From Acidimicrobiia bacterium (GTDB lineage Bacteria; Actinomycetota; Acidimicrobiia; Acidimicrobiales; SZUA-35): a DNA stretch of 33,229 nt. Shown piece by piece: positions 22,531 through 33,229 of the stretch. The stretch covers positions 1 through 33,229 of the forward strand of contig QIKW01000164.1 of NCBI GenBank assembly GCA_003231975.1, in the 5' to 3' direction. Position 1 is the first letter of the stretch. Every line of letters starts with the position of its first letter. The position numbers were made by a program, and so were the translations under genes. The notes beneath the pieces were generated by a model. That model was not told the origin of the DNA. It saw only the letters and a list, made by a program, of their open reading frames with translations, and did not search any database.

Positions 22531-24810
22531 TTACCCGGCCAGATTTTGGCGGATCACGTTTAGCGCCGACCCGGCACGGAACCACTTGATCTGGTCTTCT
22601 GAGAAGGTGTGGTTGGCGCTGAATGCCCACGATTCGCCTGATGGCGGTGTGACCTCAACGGTTACCTGCCTGCCGGGGGCGAGGTCGGCCAGCCCTCGCA
22701 CCGCGATGCGGTCGTCTTCGCCGATCCGGTCATAGTCGGCCGGGTCATCGAATGTGAGGGGCACCATGCCCTGCTTCTTCAGGTTGGTTTCATGGATCCT
22801 GGCGAAACTTCTGGCAATGGCAACCAGTCCGAGCCGGAACCTGGGCTCCATCGCGGCGTGCTCCCTGCTTGAACCTTCGCCCATGTTCTCGTCGCCTATT
22901 ACCACCCAGGGCTGACCAGCTTGGTGGTACGCCTTTGCCATGTCGGGAAAGCTCTGGCGCTCGCCGGTCAGTTGGTTCTTGCCCATCCCAACGATGTTTT
23001 CGTTGTAGGAGCTAACCGCCCCCAGGTAGAGGTTGCCCGAGATGTTCTCGAGGTGGCCTCGGTACTTCAGCCACGGGCCTGCCATTGAGATGTGGTCGGT
23101 TGTGAACTTGCCATGGGCTTTCACCAGAATTGGGAGGTTCTCATAGTCGTTGCCGTCCCATGCGGGGAACGGAGTAAGAAGCTGCAACCGGTCCGAGCTA
23201 GGCGAGACGACAACCTCAATGCTTGAGCCGTCTTCGGGCGGCGCGATGAAGCCGATTTCGCCCTCGTCGAAACCTTGGGGCGGCAGCTCAATCCCGAGCG
23301 GAACCGACAGCTTCACCTCGTCGCCCGCGTCGTTTGTGAGGGTTTGGCTGATCGGGTCGAAATCGATTCTGCCCGAAAGGGCCAGGGCCATGACCGTTTC
23401 GGGGGAGGTGACAAAGGCCAGCGTGGCTGCGTCTCCGTCGTTGCGTTTCGGGAAGTTGCGGTTGTAGGAGGTGACGATCACGTTGGTGGTTCCCGGCTCT
23501 CGCTCGTCCGAGCGGTCCCACTGGCCGATGCAGGGCCCGCAGGCGTTGGCCAGAACCGTTGCTCCAAGCACCTCGAAGTCATTAAGCAGGCCGTCTCTTT
23601 CGATCGTTGCCCGAACCTGCTCAGATCCCGGTGTGATCATCAACTTGGTCTTCACCGTCAGCCCCTTTGCCGCGGCTTCCCTGGCGATCGAGGCTGCCCG
23701 GGTGATGTCTTCATATGACGAGTTGGTGCAACTGCCGATCAAGGCGGCACTAATTTCAAGTGGCCAGCCCTCTCGCTCGGCCTCGGCCCCCAGGTCTTTC
23801 ACTTCTCTTGCCAGGTCTGGGGTGTGAGGGCCGTTGATGTGTGGGGTAAGCGCTGACAGGTCGATCTCGATCACCTGGTCGTAGTACCGCGCAGGGTTGG
23901 CAAGAACCTCGTCGTCGGGACGCAGGTGATGGGCCACCGTGTTTGCGGCGTCGGCTGTGGCTTCTCGCCCGGTGCTCTTCAGGTAGCGGGCGATGGCGTC
24001 GTCGTATGCAAACAACGAAGTGGTTGCCCCGATCTCGGCGCCCATGTTGCAGATGGTTGCCTTGCCCGTTGCGCTGATGGTGTTTGCGCCCTCGCCGATG
24101 TATTCAACAATGGCGCCGGTGCCTCCCTTGACGGTGAGGATCTGGGCCACCTTAAGAATCACGTCTTTGGCCGAGGCCCAGCCGCTTAGTTCACCGGTGA
24201 GCTTCACGCCGATCAGCTTTGGCCACCGCACGTTCCAGGGGAATCCGGTCATTACATCCACGGCGTCGGCCCCGCCAACGCCGATGGCAACCATTGCCAG
24301 CCCACCCGCATTTGGGGTGTGGCTGTCTGTGCCAATCATCATCCCGCCCGGGAATGCGTAGTTCTCAAGCACAACCTGGTGGATGATTCCGCTGCCTGGT
24401 TTCCAGAACCCGCCGCCGTACTTGGCGCTGATGCTCTGAAGAAAGTTGAAGACTTCCTCGTTGGCGTCAATCGCCCTCAGCAGATCTGATTTCCCGTCGA
24501 CCTTGGCTTGGATCAGGTGATCGCAGTGAGTGGTGGTTGGCACCTGCACCTGGTCGAGGCCCGCCGAATCGAACTGAAGCCAGGCCATCTGCGCCGTTGC
24601 ATCCTGCATTGCCACTCGATCGGGCCGGAAGTCGACATAACTCTCGCCCCGCTTCACCTCGGCGGCCGGATCTGCGAGGTGATTGGCCAGGATCTTCTCG
24701 GCCAGCGTTAGCGGCCGGGCCATTCGGGTTCGGAAGGCGCCAACTCTCTCGTCGAGCGTGGCGTAGACGCCGTTGATCAATTCGATTGGCGTTTCGGGTG
24801 CGACTGCCAT
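22531..24810 (-). CDS. Aconitate hydratase, mitochondrial type
   Basis: Isomerises citrate to isocitrate via cis-aconitate using a [4Fe-4S] cluster. Cluster cysteines are Cys361 (IGSCTNS), Cys424 and Cys427 (ACGPCIGQW). The 759-residue length and the motifs [24 protein letters not shown] and [20 protein letters not shown] match mitochondrial-type aconitase rather than the longer AcnA/IRP or AcnB types. The C-terminal swivel domain carries [24 protein letters not shown] lies 6 nt before the ATG, one of the best ribosome sites here. It is divergent from a GntR regulator with a 129-bp shared control region. Confidence 0.95.
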
Positions 24811-24922: not shown

Positions 24923-24941
24923 ATACAACTTTAATACAAGT
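24923..24941. promoter_or_regulatory. Possible GntR operator / -10 overlapping the gntR start
   Basis: ATACAA occurs twice 11 bp apart (24923-24928, 24934-24939), and ACTT-taatac-AAGT is a small inverted repeat (24928-24941). The AT-rich stretch directly abuts the GTG start of gntR, so binding here could repress both gntR and aconitase. Confidence 0.4.
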
Positions 24942-25668
24942 GAGAACGATTCGCTACCACCAAATTGCAGATGTTCTGCGTGGCCGGCTTGGCGCAGGGG
25001 AATTCCCGGCTGGGAAGATCCTGCCAAGCGAGGCCGAGCTTGGCGCGTCCTACTCCGCCAGCCGGGTCACCATCCGCAAGGCGTTGGAAGTACTTCGGGG
25101 TGAAGGGCTGGTTGCAGCCAGGCAGGGATTTGGCTGGTTTGCGGCGGCATCGCCACTGCCGCAAACCCTCACAGGCCTGGCAACCATCGAGCGCCAGCTG
25201 GCCGACTCGGGCCGCCGGTCAGAGCGGCGGATTGTTGACTTTCAGTTCGTTGCTGCGCCTGACCATGTTCGGCCCCTTCTTGGCAAGCGGGTGTTGGAAA
25301 CCAGGCGTGTCCACCTGGCGGACGGAATGCCCTTCGCCAGGGTCACTGTGTGGTGCAGGGAAGACTTGGGCGCCGAACTGTCGAAAGCTCAGGTGGAGCG
25401 GGCCAGCTTCTATGAGCTGTTGCCAATAACGGTTGGAAGCGCCGCTCAAACAATTGGGGCGGGGCTCATAGACCCCGCTGATTCAGAACTTTTGGAGGTT
25501 CCGACCGCAAGCGCGGCGTTGGTGGTGAAGCGAACCACTCACGACACCGAAGGGGCCGCATTCTTAGTGTCCGAGCATGTTTTCCCCGGCCACATCACCG
25601 AGTTTGTTGCCGAATTTCAATCGCTCGAAGCCTTCGTTTCACCAAGAGGGCTTCGACTGGCAGACTGA
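24940..25668 (+). CDS. GntR-family regulator, HutC subfamily (UTRA domain)
   Basis: A 242-residue repressor. The N-terminal winged HTH (about 1-68) shows YHQIADVLRGRLGAGEFPAG, LPSEAELGASYSASRVTIRKALEVL and a Gly-rich wing. The C-terminal UTRA effector domain (about 90-238) includes VLETRRVHLADGMPFARVTVWC and FLVSEHVFPGHITEFVAEF. The GTG start has no Shine-Dalgarno and an AT-rich promoter runs right up to it, so the mRNA is probably leaderless. Its position opposite aconitase suggests control of that gene by a metabolite, which is inference. Confidence 0.9.
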   Translation: MRTIRYHQIADVLRGRLGAGEFPAGKILPSEAELGASYSASRVTIRKALEVLRGEGLVAARQGFGWFAAASPLPQTLTGLATIERQLADSGRRSERRIVDFQFVAAPDHVRPLLGKRVLETRRVHLADGMPFARVTVWCREDLGAELSKAQVERASFYELLPITVGSAAQTIGAGLIDPADSELLEVPTASAALVVKRTTHDTEGAAFLVSEHVFPGHITEFVAEFQSLEAFVSPRGLRLAD

Positions 25669-25752: not shown

Positions 25753-28050
25753 ATGAGGAATTCGAGTCTTGCGCGCCGTGCAATCGGCGCCCTTCTAGCA
25801 ATGAGCCTTGCGGCGGTTGCTGTGTCTGGCATTCCTGCCGACGCTCAGCCCGACTCTGCTCAAGCTGAAGCAGTCAGTCGAGACGGCCAAACAGCAAACG
25901 CCGTCAACGAAGACGTTGGTCGTATCGAGCGGGCCTACATCACCTTGCTCGGGCGTCAGCCCGATGCCGGAGGTTTGCGCTACTGGCTTGCCCAGCAGGC
26001 AAACGGCCTGTCTTATGAAGCCATCGTGCAGATTTTCCTGGGTTCGGTTGAGCGCATGGCCAAGTACCCAGCCTCACAAACCAATGAAGAGTTCCTGGTG
26101 CAGCTCTACACCGATGCCTTTGGGCGTCCACCCGATTCTGGAGGGCAGGCCTACTGGGTCGGGATCCTCGATGGTGGAACGTCTCGAACCGATGTCGCCC
26201 TGTTCTTTGCCGATTCGGCCGAGCAGCGAAACAACACAGCTCCAAACGCGGTTTTCGACCTGAACATCTTCCACATCAATGACCCCCACTCCAACCTCAA
26301 TCCGAATTCGATCGAATTCACCCTTGGCGGAGTCACAACCGAAACCGAATTGGGTGGCTACCCCAGAGTGGTGGCCAAGATGGATGAGTTGGACGCCAAG
26401 TACAGCGACGGGAACAACCTCAAGCTGCTTGGAGGAGACGCTCTCACGGGAACCCTCTTCTACACGCTGTTCCAGGGTGAGGCCGATGCTGCCCTCATGA
26501 ACCAGGTCTGCTTTGACGCAATGGCAGTTGGCAACCACGAGTTCGATGCAGGCGACGCCGGGTTGGTCAAGTTCCTCGACTTCTTGTCAACCCCAGAATG
26601 CGACACCGCAATCATTTCGGCCAACGTCGAGCCTGCCCTCGGCACACCGCTGAACCCATCCGACGGCGAGCCATACATCCTGCCGTTTGTGATCAAGGAC
26701 TTCGGCGCCACCAACGGCACCGCCTCGGCCACCGATGGCAGCTCGCCAGCAGTTGACCAACGAGTGGGAATTATTGGGCTCAGCATCGCCCAAAAAACCC
26801 GGGTGTCTTCAAGCCCGCTGGATACAACGATCTTCCTCGACGAGGTTGAGTCAACCCAGCGTTATGTCGACGAGCTTGAAGCAATGGGCGTTACCAAGAT
26901 CGTGCTGGTCACCCACAACGGTTATGAGCGAGATCTAGCCCTGGCCAAGATGGTTACCGGCGTAGACCTGATCGTTAGCGGAGACACCCACACCTTGCTT
27001 GGCGAGTTTGGAGATATCGGGCTCGGCTCGGCCGGTCCGTATCCAACCAAAACAACCGACAAGTCCGGACTGCCGGTTTGTGTGGTTCAGGCCTGGCAGT
27101 ACACAGCTGTCGTTGGCGAGTTCAACGCCTCATTCGACGAGTTCGGTCACGTCGTTGAGTGCGGGGGTCAGTCCAACCTTCTTCTCGGAAACGGCTTCAC
27201 CAAGGAGGTCAACGACGAGACAGTTGATCTCACTGCTGAAGAGCTGGCAATCGTGATGGCCGAACTTGACAAGATCCCGTCTGCGGGAACAGTCACACCA
27301 GATGCCGATGCACTTGCCGTGCTTCAGACGTTCAGCGACCAGGTTGCTGTTCTGGAACTAGAAGTAATCGGCTCAGCAACCGCTGACCTTTGCAGCGGTC
27401 GCATTCCGGGAGATGTCGGCAGGACGGTGATTCCTGGTTGTGTGGCCGGAGGCTTGCCGAACGGAGGAGACATCCAACAGTTGGTTGCCTATGCGTTTGC
27501 CGACAGGGCATTCGATGCCGACTTCGCCCTTCAGAATTCGGGCGGGGTGCGAATTGACATCCCATTCGGTGAGATAACAATTGCCGATGCCTACGAACTG
27601 CTTCCCTTTGCCAACACCATGGTTAACCTTGAAATGACCGGGGCCGAAGTGGTGCAGTCTCTGGAAGACGGTGTGTCAAACATCGTTGACGAGGGAGGCT
27701 CAAGCGGTGCCTACCCCTATGGCGCCTACCTCCGGTGGGACGCCGATCTCAGCCAGCCGAAGGGTCAGCGGTTCAGCAACGTTGAGATCCGAGCCAAGGC
27801 CGACGGATCAGCCTGGGGGCCAATAGATCTGGCAGCCACCTACACCGTTGTTGTGAACAGCTTCATGGCTGGCGGAGGAGACGGCTTTGTAACCCTTGAA
27901 GCCGTTGCCGACAGTGGGCGAGCGGTTGACACTCTGATCGACTACGCCCAGGGCTTCATCGATTACGTAAGAGAAGACCTGGCAGGAAGTGTTGGCCGAG
28001 TGCCCATTGAGGACTACTCAACCCAGAACTTCACACCAGCGCCAGACTAA
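25753..28050 (+). CDS. Secreted DUF4214-linked 5'-nucleotidase / metallophosphoesterase
   Basis: A 765-residue exported protein. Residues 1-31 are a signal peptide (RRAIGALLAMSLAAVAVSG, ADA site). Residues about 55-160 hold DUF4214-type repeats (AYITLLGRQPDAGGLRYW and LYTDAFGRPPDSGGQAYW). The metallophosphatase domain follows: NDPH (Asp177, His179), GGDALTG (Asp229), GNHEFD (Asn261, His262), His388 in THNGYE, and SGDTH (410-413 region). The C-terminal 5'-nucleotidase domain has NSGGVRIDIPFGEITIAD (about 595-612) and MAGGGDGF. Probably hydrolyses extracellular nucleotides for phosphate or nucleoside uptake. The usual GHxH/GHxQ motif is GDTH here, so one metal ligand is Asp. AGGAG lies 7 nt before the ATG. 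Confidence 0.9.
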   Translation: MRNSSLARRAIGALLAMSLAAVAVSGIPADAQPDSAQAEAVSRDGQTANAVNEDVGRIERAYITLLGRQPDAGGLRYWLAQQANGLSYEAIVQIFLGSVERMAKYPASQTNEEFLVQLYTDAFGRPPDSGGQAYWVGILDGGTSRTDVALFFADSAEQRNNTAPNAVFDLNIFHINDPHSNLNPNSIEFTLGGVTTETELGGYPRVVAKMDELDAKYSDGNNLKLLGGDALTGTLFYTLFQGEADAALMNQVCFDAMAVGNHEFDAGDAGLVKFLDFLSTPECDTAIISANVEPALGTPLNPSDGEPYILPFVIKDFGATNGTASATDGSSPAVDQRVGIIGLSIAQKTRVSSSPLDTTIFLDEVESTQRYVDELEAMGVTKIVLVTHNGYERDLALAKMVTGVDLIVSGDTHTLLGEFGDIGLGSAGPYPTKTTDKSGLPVCVVQAWQYTAVVGEFNASFDEFGHVVECGGQSNLLLGNGFTKEVNDETVDLTAEELAIVMAELDKIPSAGTVTPDADALAVLQTFSDQVAVLELEVIGSATADLCSGRIPGDVGRTVIPGCVAGGLPNGGDIQQLVAYAFADRAFDADFALQNSGGVRIDIPFGEITIADAYELLPFANTMVNLEMTGAEVVQSLEDGVSNIVDEGGSSGAYPYGAYLRWDADLSQPKGQRFSNVEIRAKADGSAWGPIDLAATYTVVVNSFMAGGGDGFVTLEAVADSGRAVDTLIDYAQGFIDYVREDLAGSVGRVPIEDYSTQNFTPAPD

Positions 28051-28483: not shown

Positions 28484-29128
28484 TTACCAGGTATCCCAGT
28501 GGGTCAGTTCAGCTGCCGGCAGTCGCTTGGCCAGCTTGAAGTCTGTGCCCTTTGTGTAGGCAACGGGGAACAGCCCGGCCTGGGTGTAGCGGTCGAACGG
28601 GATGCCAAGCAGTTCTGCCACTTCCTTTTCGTTTGGCAGGTGCAGGGTTGTCCACGCCGATCCAAGGCCGCGCTCCCTGAGGGCCAGCATGAAGCTCCAC
28701 ACCGCCGGAAGGATGGAGCCCCAAACCGCAGCCTGGGCCGGGGCCGGAGTGCCCTCGTCAAGCCGGGCCTCGATCAACGGGATCACCATGTAGGGAGCGC
28801 GGTGGAAGTTGTCTGCCAGATATTGGGCCGAAGAACGAACCAGCGGCATCCGCTCGGTTCTGGTGTCGTCTGGCGCGAACTCCGTTCCCGGTTGGCTGGC
28901 GTAGACGGCGAAGTTGTTCGCGTAGTAGTCGGCAATGGCCTTCTTCTTCTCGGCGTCTTCAATCACCATCCACTGCCAGCCCTGGCTGTTCGAGCCGGTT
29001 GGGGCCTGGAGCGCGATGTCGAGGCACTCTTCAACTTCTGATCGGCTTACCGGCTTGTCGAAATCCAGCCGTTTGCGAACCGATCTGGTTGTGGTTAGCA
29101 CTTCGTCTGCGGTGAGATTCAGTTTCAT
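28484..29128 (-). CDS. Nitroreductase-family FMN oxidoreductase
   Basis: An FMN-dependent NAD(P)H oxidoreductase of about 214 residues. It has the FMN phosphate motif TRSVRKRLDF, APTGSNSQGWQWMVIED and the C-terminal ERGLGSAWTTLHL. The start is taken at the third of three clustered ATGs (MKLNLTADEV, 29128) because it gives the family-like opening; 29140 is possible. The substrate is unknown. It stands alone between the small HTH gene (convergent) and the acyltransferase gene, 73 nt away on the same strand. Confidence 0.88.
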   Translation of the reverse strand: MKLNLTADEVLTTTRSVRKRLDFDKPVSRSEVEECLDIALQAPTGSNSQGWQWMVIEDAEKKKAIADYYANNFAVYASQPGTEFAPDDTRTERMPLVRSSAQYLADNFHRAPYMVIPLIEARLDEGTPAPAQAAVWGSILPAVWSFMLALRERGLGSAWTTLHLPNEKEVAELLGIPFDRYTQAGLFPVAYTKGTDFKLAKRLPAAELTHWDTW

Positions 29129-29201
29129 GCCAGCCATCATTGGCCAACCGGGCAGCCCCCGTCCAACTGCTGGGACTTAGCTGGTACTCCGACTGTTTGC
29201 C

Positions 29202-30098
29202 TCAGAGCTTGGGCCAGCGCTGCGCCGATTTGCTGCGGCGCTGAGACTTGCCTGGCTTTGGGCCAAGTGACCAGCGCCGTCGCCAGGCTCCGGCTTCTGG
29301 CCCGTCTAGTTCGGGAGTGGTTTTGGCGTGGGCCTTCTTCCTGGCCTCCCACCAGCCAGACGAGAACTCGTCTGCCAGCTCGTTGATAGTTGCCTGGATT
29401 CGTTTGGCGTACTGCCTGGCGTCTTCGCCGTCCAGCGCGGTAAGCGGCTTGCCGAACACCACGGCGCAGCGGGCTCTGGTTGGCCAGTTCTTGCCCTTTG
29501 GCAGAATCGTGCCGGTGCCATCGAGGTAGACCGGCACAACGGGAACACCCATTCGTTTCGCAACGAACGCTGCGCCGGGCCGATGCTCTCGGCTCCAGCC
29601 GTCTGGGCTGCGCCTGCCTTCGGGGAAGATCAGGAGGCTGCGGCCCTTCTCGATTGACCGGGTTGCGTTCCTGATCGAGAGCTTTGAAAGCTTTGTCCGC
29701 TCGATTGGGATGGCGCCGATGAACAGCGCTGAAAGAGCGCCGGAGAGGCGGTTCGGGAAGAAATAGTCTGCCCCGGCAGCAACAACCAGTCGCCTTCGCA
29801 GGTGACCGGGAAGGGTTGCCAACATCAGCGAAGTGTCGGCATGACTGTGATGGTTGGCGGCAAACACCACCGGGCCTTCCACCTCTTGCAGCCGGTCAAC
29901 CCCGATAACCCGGGGCGAAGCGAAGATCTTCACCGCCGGTTTCATGAAGCCCCAAACTCCTGCCTCGCGAATAACGCGGGCCGGGAACTTCCTGGCCCAC
30001 TCGGTGTCGTAATACACCCCGGTTGTTGGCTCGGTCTTTTTCTTCTCAACACCCCGGGGGGTGGGAGGGGGATCCGTTATGAAGCGCATCCATCCCAT
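29202..30098 (-). CDS. Lysophospholipid / 1-acylglycerol-3-phosphate acyltransferase (PlsC family)
   Basis: A 298-residue membrane-associated acyltransferase that transfers a fatty acyl group to a lysophospholipid-type acceptor. The HX4D motif is in NHHSHAD (His83-Asp88), the FPEGRRS motif lies at 158-164, and VPVVPVYLDGTG follows. The C-terminal tail (about 255-298) is strongly basic. AAGGAGG lies 8 nt before the ATG and overlaps the stop of the LarA-like gene, so expression is coupled to that operon. The gap to the upstream gene is 13 nt. The exact acyl acceptor is undetermined. Confidence 0.9.
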   Translation of the reverse strand: MGWMRFITDPPPTPRGVEKKKTEPTTGVYYDTEWARKFPARVIREAGVWGFMKPAVKIFASPRVIGVDRLQEVEGPVVFAANHHSHADTSLMLATLPGHLRRRLVVAAGADYFFPNRLSGALSALFIGAIPIERTKLSKLSIRNATRSIEKGRSLLIFPEGRRSPDGWSREHRPGAAFVAKRMGVPVVPVYLDGTGTILPKGKNWPTRARCAVVFGKPLTALDGEDARQYAKRIQATINELADEFSSGWWEARKKAHAKTTPELDGPEAGAWRRRWSLGPKPGKSQRRSKSAQRWPKL

Positions 30099-30111
30099 TG
30101 TTCAGGCCTCC

Positions 30112-31719
30112 TTAGGTGACGTCCGCCATCAGAATTGGCGGATTGTGAATATGGGTGATTGTTGGGCTGGAACCTACGGTGTCGCTTGCCATTTCCAGCG
30201 CATCCTGAAGTGTTGAAGCCGGCTTGAACCCCAGTCGGCGGACCGCCTTTGGCTCTCCTCCAACCACGATCACGCTTCCCAAGTAGTCCATAGCATGGGC
30301 GCACCAATACCACATGTAGTGGGCGTGCACCCCGTGGTAGGCGTAACTGGTTCGGTAGAGGTGGCGATACCACTCGTCTTCGGCGTATTGCTTTTCGTAT
30401 TTCTGAACCTCGACGGGGTCGGTGGTTTCGGCCAGAACTTGTTCGAAGAAGTCGATGTAGCTTGGATGGTGAACCGGGTGGAATTCCCACGGGGTTGGGT
30501 GGCTCATGATGAGCACCCCGCCCTCTTTAACCACCGGTTTGCCCCGGTAAAGGTTAAAGAAGTAACCAAGCCCCTGAACCGCAACCAGGATCGGGTTCAT
30601 GATTGAGTTCACGTTGTATGGGCAGATGTATGGCAACCCCATTGTGACCACATCGGTTTGGCCGGTGACGGGAACGATGTGCTGCTTGTAGACCATCTCG
30701 GTTGTCTTTTTGTGAACGGCTTCAACCTCGCCTGCCTGAACCGAGGTGAGCTCGTACGGGGCCCGCCAGGACTGAAACGCCTTGCGACGCTGAGCCCCGG
30801 TCATCCGCTTCAGCCCTGCGTTCATCACAACAAACGAGCCGCGGTCTTTCAGGCTCCACTCCCACTCTCGCTTCTGAAGCATCGAGAGCGGGCCGTCATA
30901 ACCAAAGGTGTTTGTGTTAAGGGTTGACTCGATCTGAAAGATTCGGGGCCCGGAGGCCTTGATTACCTCGCCCTGGCGCCAGTTGGAGCGATGCAGCTCG
31001 CTCTTGTCCTGGTCCATGAACGACGTGCTCTTCTTCATCGTTTCTGGGTTGTGGTGAACTTTCACCCCTTGATAGCCCGAAAGGCCGGTTGCGGTGCTCT
31101 TCCAGCCGCCATCCATGCTGACCAGGTTGATGTTTACGTAGATGACCAGGTCAGACTCGGCCGCCCGTTTAGACATCTGAACGTCTTCGTCATGGCGGGT
31201 TTTGCCAAGGATCACCATTCCGTCTGGGTCTTCGGCGTCGTGGTTGTACAGCAGGCCGTGGGGGTGGAACGCCTCAAAAACGCGGTCGCCAACGGCATGG
31301 CGAAGCTCGGCGTCAGTCATTCGCCGGTGCAGGGCAAGAGCGGCAATCAGGTGGACGTCGTCAACTCCCGCCGCGGCCACCAGATCAAGCACTGCTTCCA
31401 GGATCCTCTGGCGAACATCTGGTTTAGCCATTGGCGGAAGCGGCAGGCTTATGTCGTCGAACGCAATGGTCAACTTCATTCCCGGCTTCAGCAGCGAAGG
31501 CAGCGGGTCGTCGTTGATGGGGTTCAGCAGTGCCTCAACAATTGCTGAGTCGGGATCCTTCATTCCGTGCAGCGGCTCGCCGGGGTAGATAACTCGGCTG
31601 CGTCCAACCGGCAGCTTTTCCAGCCGAAAGCCTTCGCCGTGGTGGAACACGATTGGCGGAGTTTGACGGTCTACTTCAAGGACGAAGCCGGGGCGAGGGT
31701 TCGGGCGGGGCTTTGACAT
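30112..31719 (-). CDS. LarA-like (DUF2088) protein, divergent
   Basis: A 535-residue protein related to lactate racemase LarA and its homologues, which use a nickel-pincer cofactor on alpha-hydroxy acids. The DUF2088-like N-terminus shows MKLTIAFDDISLPLPPM (about 81-97), then DLVAAAGVDDVHLIAALALHRRMTDAEL with His131 where LarA has HR, and later GGWKSTATGLSG (Lys207). The D-x-T-R-P segment of LarA reads DDISLP, so the Arg that contacts the cofactor is missing. No larB, larC or larE cofactor genes are in the window, so racemase activity is not supported. ATG follows the TAG of the upstream gene without a gap, and the PlsC gene follows 13 nt later. Confidence 0.72.
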   Translation of the reverse strand: MSKPRPNPRPGFVLEVDRQTPPIVFHHGEGFRLEKLPVGRSRVIYPGEPLHGMKDPDSAIVEALLNPINDDPLPSLLKPGMKLTIAFDDISLPLPPMAKPDVRQRILEAVLDLVAAAGVDDVHLIAALALHRRMTDAELRHAVGDRVFEAFHPHGLLYNHDAEDPDGMVILGKTRHDEDVQMSKRAAESDLVIYVNINLVSMDGGWKSTATGLSGYQGVKVHHNPETMKKSTSFMDQDKSELHRSNWRQGEVIKASGPRIFQIESTLNTNTFGYDGPLSMLQKREWEWSLKDRGSFVVMNAGLKRMTGAQRRKAFQSWRAPYELTSVQAGEVEAVHKKTTEMVYKQHIVPVTGQTDVVTMGLPYICPYNVNSIMNPILVAVQGLGYFFNLYRGKPVVKEGGVLIMSHPTPWEFHPVHHPSYIDFFEQVLAETTDPVEVQKYEKQYAEDEWYRHLYRTSYAYHGVHAHYMWYWCAHAMDYLGSVIVVGGEPKAVRRLGFKPASTLQDALEMASDTVGSSPTITHIHNPPILMADVT

Positions 31720-33229
31720 CTAGCGTCGACTCTTTCGCAGGGACGGAAGCGGCCCGAGGGGCAGGACGCGGTCTGTGCCGCCCTTTGATTTCGACCAGTT
31801 CTCGATTAACCAGCCCCGCTTGATCGCTAGCGAGGCCAGCCTGGTTTCGGGGTTGACGGCCACCGGAAAGCCGACGGCTTCCAGCAGCGGCAAGTCTGAA
31901 GAAGAGTCGGCGTAGGCCACCGACTCGGCTAGATCGAAGCCCTTTTGGTCGGCGTAGTCTCGCAACGCCTGAGCCCTTACTTCGCCGGTTGGCGGCACCG
32001 CCAGCAGCTCGCCGGTGTAGCGGCCGTTGCGCACCGACATTTCGGCACAGATCACGTCGTCGAACAAGGGCCCTAGGGGGTCTACCACGATGTTGAGAGC
32101 ACCGGTTATGAGAACGGTGCGGTGGCCAAGGCTGCGGTGCTGCCTGACCCGTCTGAGCGCCGCCGGGAAGGCCTTTGTGAGGATGTGATCGGCCAGAAGC
32201 TCCTGGCCGAGGCGCTCCATCTGGGCCACTGAAGCACCGTCGTAGCGACGGTAGAAGTGGCGCAGAAAGTCGGTGCGGTCACGGGCATCGAGGGCCAGGA
32301 GGGCCGGGGCCTCCTGCAAGGTTTTCAACGTGAACTTGACCCGGTCGGCGGGGCCAAGGTTGCGGGTGGCAAGCCAGGCGTAGCTGAACACAACGTTGCT
32401 GGCGATGATCGTGTTTTCGAGGTCGAACGCAGCCACATGGCGGTCTGGGGAAAGCACCCTCTTGCGCAATCGCTTGGTTCTGGCATCGGGGTCGGTGCGA
32501 CCCTGCTTGGTTTTCACTCTGGCGTGCTGTACCACCGACGGGAGATGCACCTGGGTTACGTACCGGTCCCAGTCAATAATCCCGGGGTCGCAGCCAAAGT
32601 TGACCTGGTCGGCTGGTGCCAAATCGTTGTGCAACGCCAGCAGCTGATCTACTCCGTAGAGCGCCTCGCATTCGGCGTAGGCGCCGTAGATCTTTACGTA
32701 CGCCTTCGCTCGCTCAACCTGTTCCATTTTGTCTTCGATGTCGGCGTTGAGCATTGCCTGCTTGCCTCGGAGGGGCAGCAGCTTCAGCGCTTTGTCTGCC
32801 AGTTCGAGGTTGCGGTGGGCTCGGCCCAGCTGGCGCTCAACCGCACCCCGGCCTGGGAAGCTGAATGGGGCAACCGCAATGGGTTGGCCAAGGTTGTCAT
32901 ACAAAGGGCGCTCGCCGAACCAACCACTTACCAACTCAACCAGGCGCCTGTAGTGGAGCGGATTCCGGGTGCCGGAGGCTACCTGGGTGATGTCGGTGGT
33001 TTCCGAGCCGTCGTGGCCCCTGGCAGCAACATTGATAATGGCGGCCACCACCAGGTCAACCGGGATTACGTCGACAACTCCTTCGGGCACTCCTGGGAAC
33101 TCCCTCAGCAGGCCTTGGGCGTAGCTGATCAGGATGGGTTCGGCCATCCTGAACCCCTTTATCCACCCGGGTCGGGGCTCAGACCAGGCCGACTCGATGA
33201 TGGATGGCCGCACCATGCTGACGGGGACG
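31720..33229 (-). CDS. Fatty-acyl-CoA reductase-like / HAD-IB fusion, 5' end outside window
   Basis: The reading frame is open through the right edge. The apparent ATG at 33216 is internal: VPVSMVRPSIIESA matches the end of the extended-SDR domain of fatty acyl-CoA reductases. The visible part holds the SDR end with RPGWIKG and IPVDLVVAAIINVAA, a FAR C-terminal-like stretch (DPGIIDWDRYV), then a HAD-IB domain (about the last 240 residues). HAD motif I is FDLENTI (32408-32424) with Glu in place of the second Asp. Motif II lies in LITGA and motif IV in YADSSSDLP. The protein could make a fatty alcohol from acyl-CoA; the HAD substrate is unknown. It is directly joined to the LarA-like gene (TAGATG). 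Confidence 0.85.
   Translation of the reverse strand, partial: VPVSMVRPSIIESAWSEPRPGWIKGFRMAEPILISYAQGLLREFPGVPEGVVDVIPVDLVVAAIINVAARGHDGSETTDITQVASGTRNPLHYRRLVELVSGWFGERPLYDNLGQPIAVAPFSFPGRGAVERQLGRAHRNLELADKALKLLPLRGKQAMLNADIEDKMEQVERAKAYVKIYGAYAECEALYGVDQLLALHNDLAPADQVNFGCDPGIIDWDRYVTQVHLPSVVQHARVKTKQGRTDPDARTKRLRKRVLSPDRHVAAFDLENTIIASNVVFSYAWLATRNLGPADRVKFTLKTLQEAPALLALDARDRTDFLRHFYRRYDGASVAQMERLGQELLADHILTKAFPAALRRVRQHRSLGHRTVLITGALNIVVDPLGPLFDDVICAEMSVRNGRYTGELLAVPPTGEVRAQALRDYADQKGFDLAESVAYADSSSDLPLLEAVGFPVAVNPETRLASLAIKRGWLIENWSKSKGGTDRVLPLGPLPSLRKSRR

Follow-up and report, generated by a model that had tools for sequence, protein, structure and literature searches.

Which lipid, if any, is made by an operon that joins an acyl-CoA reductase-like (FAR) domain, a HAD phosphatase domain, a LarA-like enzyme and a PlsC acyltransferase? 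The question is raised by three genes at the end of the window, by which we mean the whole 33,229-nucleotide stretch of DNA analyzed here, contig QIKW01000164.1 (C51) of a 3.71-Mb draft genome (G000; 95% complete) of an Acidimicrobiia bacterium. A preliminary description, made from the sequence of the window, had proposed that the genes form an operon with a role in a lipid pathway.

Gene layout and conservation

The three genes lie on the minus strand, and direct reading of the sequence agreed to the base with their previously assigned coordinates and with both junctions. The first gene (31720-33228, 502 codons, open at the contig end) encodes the C-terminal 502 residues of a FAR-HAD fusion and is followed by the genes for the LarA-like protein (30112..31719, 535 aa) and for a PlsC/AGPAT-type acyltransferase (29202..30098, 298 aa). 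At the first junction, GCTAGATG, the TAG stop of FAR-HAD is followed directly by ATG, with no gap; at the second, CACCTAAGGAGGCCTGAACAATG, a TAA stop is followed by a 13-nt spacer (30099..30111, minus strand) containing a GGAGG Shine-Dalgarno sequence, which reads AAGGAGG when the end of the stop codon is counted, and then by ATG. FAR-HAD homologues are about 778 residues long. The window holds the part corresponding to residues 277-778, and residues 1-253, which the preliminary description had proposed to recover, were located on another contig of the same genome (C226:1-744). The N-terminus is thus absent from the window because the contig ends there, and for no other reason.

Profile matches in Pfam and NCBIfam bore out the domain families assigned previously. 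The FAR part (32524..33228, minus strand) comprises the end of the NAD_binding_4 domain and the "Sterile" FAR_C region, the latter below the Pfam cut-off. In an alignment of the window's portion with the FAR structure 7eoz, residues 1-236 match with E=3.9e-25, and a full-length homologue (L005:5665-7998) matches PF07993 with E=1e-58. Alcohol-forming FARs are recognized by a Rossmann TGxxGxxG motif, YxxxK and a FAR_C/Sterile region; the full-length homologues keep TGxTGFLG and YxxxK together with the sub-threshold Sterile region, and we predict that they form alcohols. The HAD-IB phosphatase domain (31879..32433, minus strand) matches PF12710 (E=2.5e-29) and TIGR01490 (120.6 bits; cut-off 98.3). 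Among 84 homologues, the nucleophile Asp of motif I (D-L-E-x-T) and the Asp pair of motif IV (ADSSSD) are invariant, with motif I reading D-x-E in 76 and D-x-D in 8. The acyltransferase matches PF01553 (E=4.3e-21) and the AGPAT structure 5kym (E=7e-12), and its NHxSHxD and FPEGxRS.DG motifs are kept in 121 homologues. The catalytic motifs of all three activities are conserved across 81-121 homologues. The LarA-like protein has a Lar_N domain and matches NF052592, the LarAH14/15/16 family, over positions 1-519 of the 520-position profile (853.3 bits; cut-off 740), and is referred to below as LarAH14.

We scanned genome contigs and found 508 LarA-like relatives, of which 80 loci, nearly all titled Acidimicrobiia or Actinomycetota, were kept. 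Wherever the flank was long enough, FAR-HAD preceded and PlsC followed the LarA-like gene in these loci. LarAH14 is the most conserved of the trio, with about 75% identity where FAR-HAD shows about 58% and PlsC about 48%. Most of the Acidimicrobiales genomes listed encode a LarAH14 that scores over the cut-off, as do many further families within the phylum; none was found on plasmids. Among the Acidimicrobiales genomes tested, FAR-HAD was present in all 40 with LarAH14 and in none of the 12 without it (Fisher p=5e-12, which overstates the evidence because related genomes are not independent). The preliminary description had proposed that loss of the trio from related neighborhoods would refute the operon. 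The trio is conserved, and we conclude that it is a true operon rather than an incidental arrangement, maintained across deep-branching Actinomycetota.

The gene set proposed previously was correct for the trio and missed a fourth gene. A gene for a zinc alcohol dehydrogenase (ADH) separates FAR-HAD from LarAH14 in most relatives that fall outside the clade of the window; among solved structures, this ADH is closest to ketose reductase and sorbitol dehydrogenase. The orthologue in the window's genome (58% identity) has moved to another contig (C79), and the gene is likewise displaced in three family-mates (G263, G271, G312). The new neighbors of the relocated gene (QueG, a glycosyltransferase, kinases and PFK) gave no clue to a pathway. 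The ancestral operon is FAR-HAD/zinc ADH/LarAH14/PlsC. It is often accompanied by a TetR regulator, whose gene is upstream and divergently oriented in 47 loci.

Other genes near the operon were judged to be neighbors and not members, because their presence differs between clades. They include genes for a nitroreductase, an LLM F420 oxidoreductase (10 loci), ddl, a mur ligase and an aconitase, together with protoglobin and MOSC insertions in Rubrobacter, where genes for a protoglobin and for a YiiM-like MOSC protein separate ADH from LarAH14 (L126:12167-12820, L145:8355-9044). In the window, a nitroreductase-family gene (28484-29140, minus strand) begins 61 nt downstream of plsC and could be co-transcribed there; no nitroreductase was prominent among the conserved neighbor families of related loci. 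Farther along the window, an aconitase-like gene (22531-24810, minus strand) is divergent from a GntR/UTRA regulator gene (24940-25668, plus strand), and a gene of about 765 codons that frequently follows the operon in relatives (in 48 loci) may be the aconitase gene. The window also encodes a UshA-like 5'-nucleotidase/metallophosphatase (25753-28050, plus strand) with an unusual combination of two N-terminal DUF4214 repeats and a signal-peptide-like N-terminus. A distant branch of LarAH14-like proteins (L130, L131 and L132 of family f75, and L134-L138; about 500 bits or less, 32-41% identity) lacks nearby FAR-HAD or PlsC genes; LarC was present in those of its genomes that were tested.

Evidence for a probable fatty-alcohol lipid

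The operon probably builds a lipid that contains a fatty alcohol. The more specific reading, that it encodes an alkyl (ether) glycerolipid pathway with an extra step dependent on the rare nickel-pincer nucleotide (NPN) cofactor, we consider evenly balanced; it draws on the conservation of the trio, the ADH, the co-occurrence of LarB, LarC and LarE, the proximity of alkyl-DHAP synthase (AGPS), the presence of the operon in Rubrobacter and the likeness to a known ether-lipid cluster.

A Streptomyces plasmid encodes a homologue of FAR-HAD (36% identity at 98% coverage) within 5 kb of an SDR and an AGPS, the latter matching 2uuu with E=1.6e-114. The distance between AGPS and FAR-HAD is 2.5-4.5 kb in three Acidimicrobiales genomes (G149, G114, G079), with ddl and mur genes between, an arrangement that may reflect one ancestral event. 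A cluster beside a mur ligase was also considered as AGPS; it had no BLAST match, and on inspection its sequence reads as an amidase. Two results on AGPS count against the alkyl-ether reading: AGPS occurs in two genomes without LarAH14 (G256, G067), and the window's genome contains no clear match to it (best E=4e-27, GlcD-like). Throughout the window's family the matches to AGPS are GlcD-like, and true AGPS is found in some relatives only.

Loci with FAR-HAD, ADH and LarAH14 are also carried by family f71, which we identified as Rubrobacter because genus-specific 16S primers (PMC6834744) match 8 of 13 f71 genomes and none of 9 others. Rubrobacterales are reported, in a title cited in PMC11150832, to have dominant mixed ether/ester lipids. 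In the Rubrobacter genomes tested, AGPS searches returned GlcD-like matches only (E about 1e-16 to 1e-22). The operon loci of this genus showed no PlsC, which again counts against the alkyl-ether reading. The paper on Rubrobacterales lipids is also said to name a putative 1-O-alkylglycerol-phosphate operon in Rubrobacter.

Two known systems can be compared with this one. The animal-type aerobic ether-lipid pathway consists of FAR1, GNPAT, AGPS, alkyl-DHAP reductase and AGPAT. Its FAR and AGPAT steps are shared here, and AGPS adjoins or lies near FAR-HAD on the Streptomyces plasmid and in some Acidimicrobiales, but neither the window's genome nor the Rubrobacter genomes tested yielded AGPS, and the zinc ADH and the NPN enzyme are additional. 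The elb ether-lipid cluster (elbA-E) of Myxococcus xanthus, an aerobe, likewise unites FAR, AGPAT-like acyltransferase and HAD-type hydrolase functions in one operon (PMC9131029). In elb, however, a single FAR-ACS-ACP-AGPAT protein (ElbD) is accompanied by NAD-epimerase genes, whereas here FAR is fused to HAD and PlsC is separate; we found no acyl-CoA synthetase or ACP in this operon, and hence no ElbD-type megaprotein. No LarA is reported in elb, and ElbC is described only as being of unknown function (PMC9131029).

A less probable reading, though the strongest competitor, is that the fatty alcohol enters another lipid, such as a long-chain 1,2-diol, a 2-hydroxyacyl or hydroxyacid-linked lipid or a wax-type ester. 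In that case PlsC would acylate the alcohol, and the substrate of LarAH14 would be a 2-hydroxyacid, either long-chain or part of a head group. Such a lipid would accommodate all of the domains and the absence of AGPS from Acidimicrobiia of the window's family, and the LarA enzymes characterized so far use 2-hydroxyacid substrates (PMC7583248, PMC11770544). It accounts less well for the FAR-HAD homologues near AGPS in four genomes, for the operon in a genus known for ether lipids, and for the AGPAT motifs of PlsC, which suit a glycerol-phosphate acceptor.

The LarA-family enzyme and its probable cofactor

We aligned LarAH14 to 9q2u and assigned its residues in LarA_Lp numbering (PMC12611868). 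The equivalents of D72 (D89), H108 (H131), K184 (K207) and H200 (H223) are invariant in 133 homologues, so that the NPN lysine (K207) and the Ni-ligand histidine (H223) expected of an NPN-dependent LarA are present in every one. The equivalent of R75 is Leu (L92), and that of H174 is Asn (N198, or N196) in 133/133 homologues. As the second catalytic histidine is replaced by Asn, LarAH14 was not filed as a racemase, and hydroxyacid racemase chemistry cannot be assumed for it. The preliminary description was thus right about the family but overlooked both the missing histidine and the link to the cofactor described below.

An AlphaFold (AF2) model of LarAH14 (pLDDT 94.7) found its best PDB match in the single-His LarA 9q3k (TM 0.78/0.86). 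LarA_Sp and LarA_Bw (9q2u, 9q3k, 9q3j; PMC12611868) share this fold and the Asn in place of the second histidine, but they are only about 20-22% identical to LarAH14, and their genes sit among glycolysis genes and are tied to carbohydrate metabolism (PMC12611868), whereas LarAH14 is encoded among lipid genes. With the NF052592 family, LarAH14 shares the whole-length match, the NPN lysine, the Ni-ligand histidine and the single catalytic histidine. That family has no known substrate: a Frankia LarAH14 was inactive in seven standard reaction assays, and it was proposed that LarAs without one of the histidines might catalyze another hydride-mediated reaction (PMC7583248). In the papers accessible to us, we did not find a description of the partnership with FAR-HAD, ADH and PlsC, of the lipid-gene setting or of the linkage to larB and larC; the gene set itself was not found in any paper, in a search with most subscription papers outside its reach.

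The cofactor biosynthesis proteins LarB, LarC and LarE scored over the cut-off in 37, 37 and 36 of the 40 Acidimicrobiales genomes with LarAH14, respectively, and in none of the 12 without it (p about 1e-8 to 2e-9). Outside Acidimicrobiales, LarC was present in 36 of 37 genomes with LarAH14. In one genome (G658), plsC is immediately followed by larB and larC in the same orientation; two others (G442, G601) have larC near the operon. Most of these genomes contain a single LarA homologue, and the cofactor is presumably made for LarAH14. Given this co-occurrence and the adjacency of larB and larC to the operon in some genomes, LarAH14 is very probably NPN-dependent.

It is improbable, by comparison, that LarAH14 works without NPN or has little to do with the lipid genes, and that the operon amounts to FAR-HAD and PlsC with an unrelated co-transcribed protein. 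Group 16 was left out by Desguin et al. (2020) as probably not NPN-dependent (PMC7583248), the Leu and Asn replacements depart from the LarA_Lp active site, and three assemblies with LarAH14 (the window's draft genome G000, and G075 and G087) contain no LarB, LarC or LarE, which may represent either assembly gaps or a real loss of NPN synthesis. In a family-mate of the window's genome (G271), the three genes are contiguous (C28:120-2280), and as they are contiguous in family-mates, one assembly gap could account for their absence from G000. The invariance of Lys207, His223, His131 and Asp89, the co-occurrence and linkage of the cofactor genes, the stronger conservation of LarAH14 than of FAR-HAD or PlsC, and the presence of FAR-HAD in every one of the 40 Acidimicrobiales genomes with LarAH14 that were tested argue against an unrelated protein.

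Proposed pathway and its implications

On the alkyl-ether reading, the FAR half would make a fatty alcohol by reduction of a fatty acyl thioester, and the alcohol would become the O-alkyl (ether) chain of a glycerolipid through AGPS where that enzyme is present and through another step elsewhere. The sorbitol-dehydrogenase/ketose-reductase-like ADH would bring an alkyl-DHAP-type intermediate with a C2 ketone to the glycerol level by reduction, acylation at sn-2 would be the task of PlsC, and a phosphate would be removed by the HAD half. LarAH14, with one catalytic histidine and NPN as hydride carrier, would perform a hydride-transfer isomerization of a hydroxy-carbonyl intermediate rather than a two-base racemization. 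We infer the lipid product, the order of the steps and the reactions of the ADH and of LarAH14. This reading agrees with the lipid pathway of the preliminary description, which listed an ether lipid among its options.

A degradative role, in which the operon would let cells use fatty alcohols, waxes or a hydroxyacid for growth, working in the oxidative direction under TetR control, is very improbable: although ADH, TetR and LarA-type genes are common in catabolic operons, the operon is widespread and mostly single-copy in an ecologically diverse order, including 2-Mb genomes, as suits a structural lipid; PlsC and a FAR with an alcohol-forming C-terminal region are predicted to be biosynthetic; and the neighborhood in related loci lacks any conserved transporter or beta-oxidation gene.

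Where AGPS is missing, as in Rubrobacter and the window's family, we suggest only tentatively that hydride transfer by LarAH14 and the zinc ADH forms or completes the alkyl ether. If this is true, it would provide an AGPS-independent aerobic route to ether lipids, the first non-racemase NPN reaction and a nickel-pincer enzyme in membrane-lipid synthesis.

How LarAs with a single catalytic histidine work is an open mechanistic question, and the strict co-occurrence of LarAH14 with three lipid enzymes allows substrates to be named for testing. A role in lipid synthesis would place these orphan nickel enzymes in a lipid context for the first time. The operon is also relevant to the synthesis of ether lipids by aerobic bacteria that lack the known synthase. 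Acidimicrobiales are abundant in the sea and in soil, and the cassette is present in most of the families sampled, so a lipid made by it would be widespread and might serve as a biomarker.
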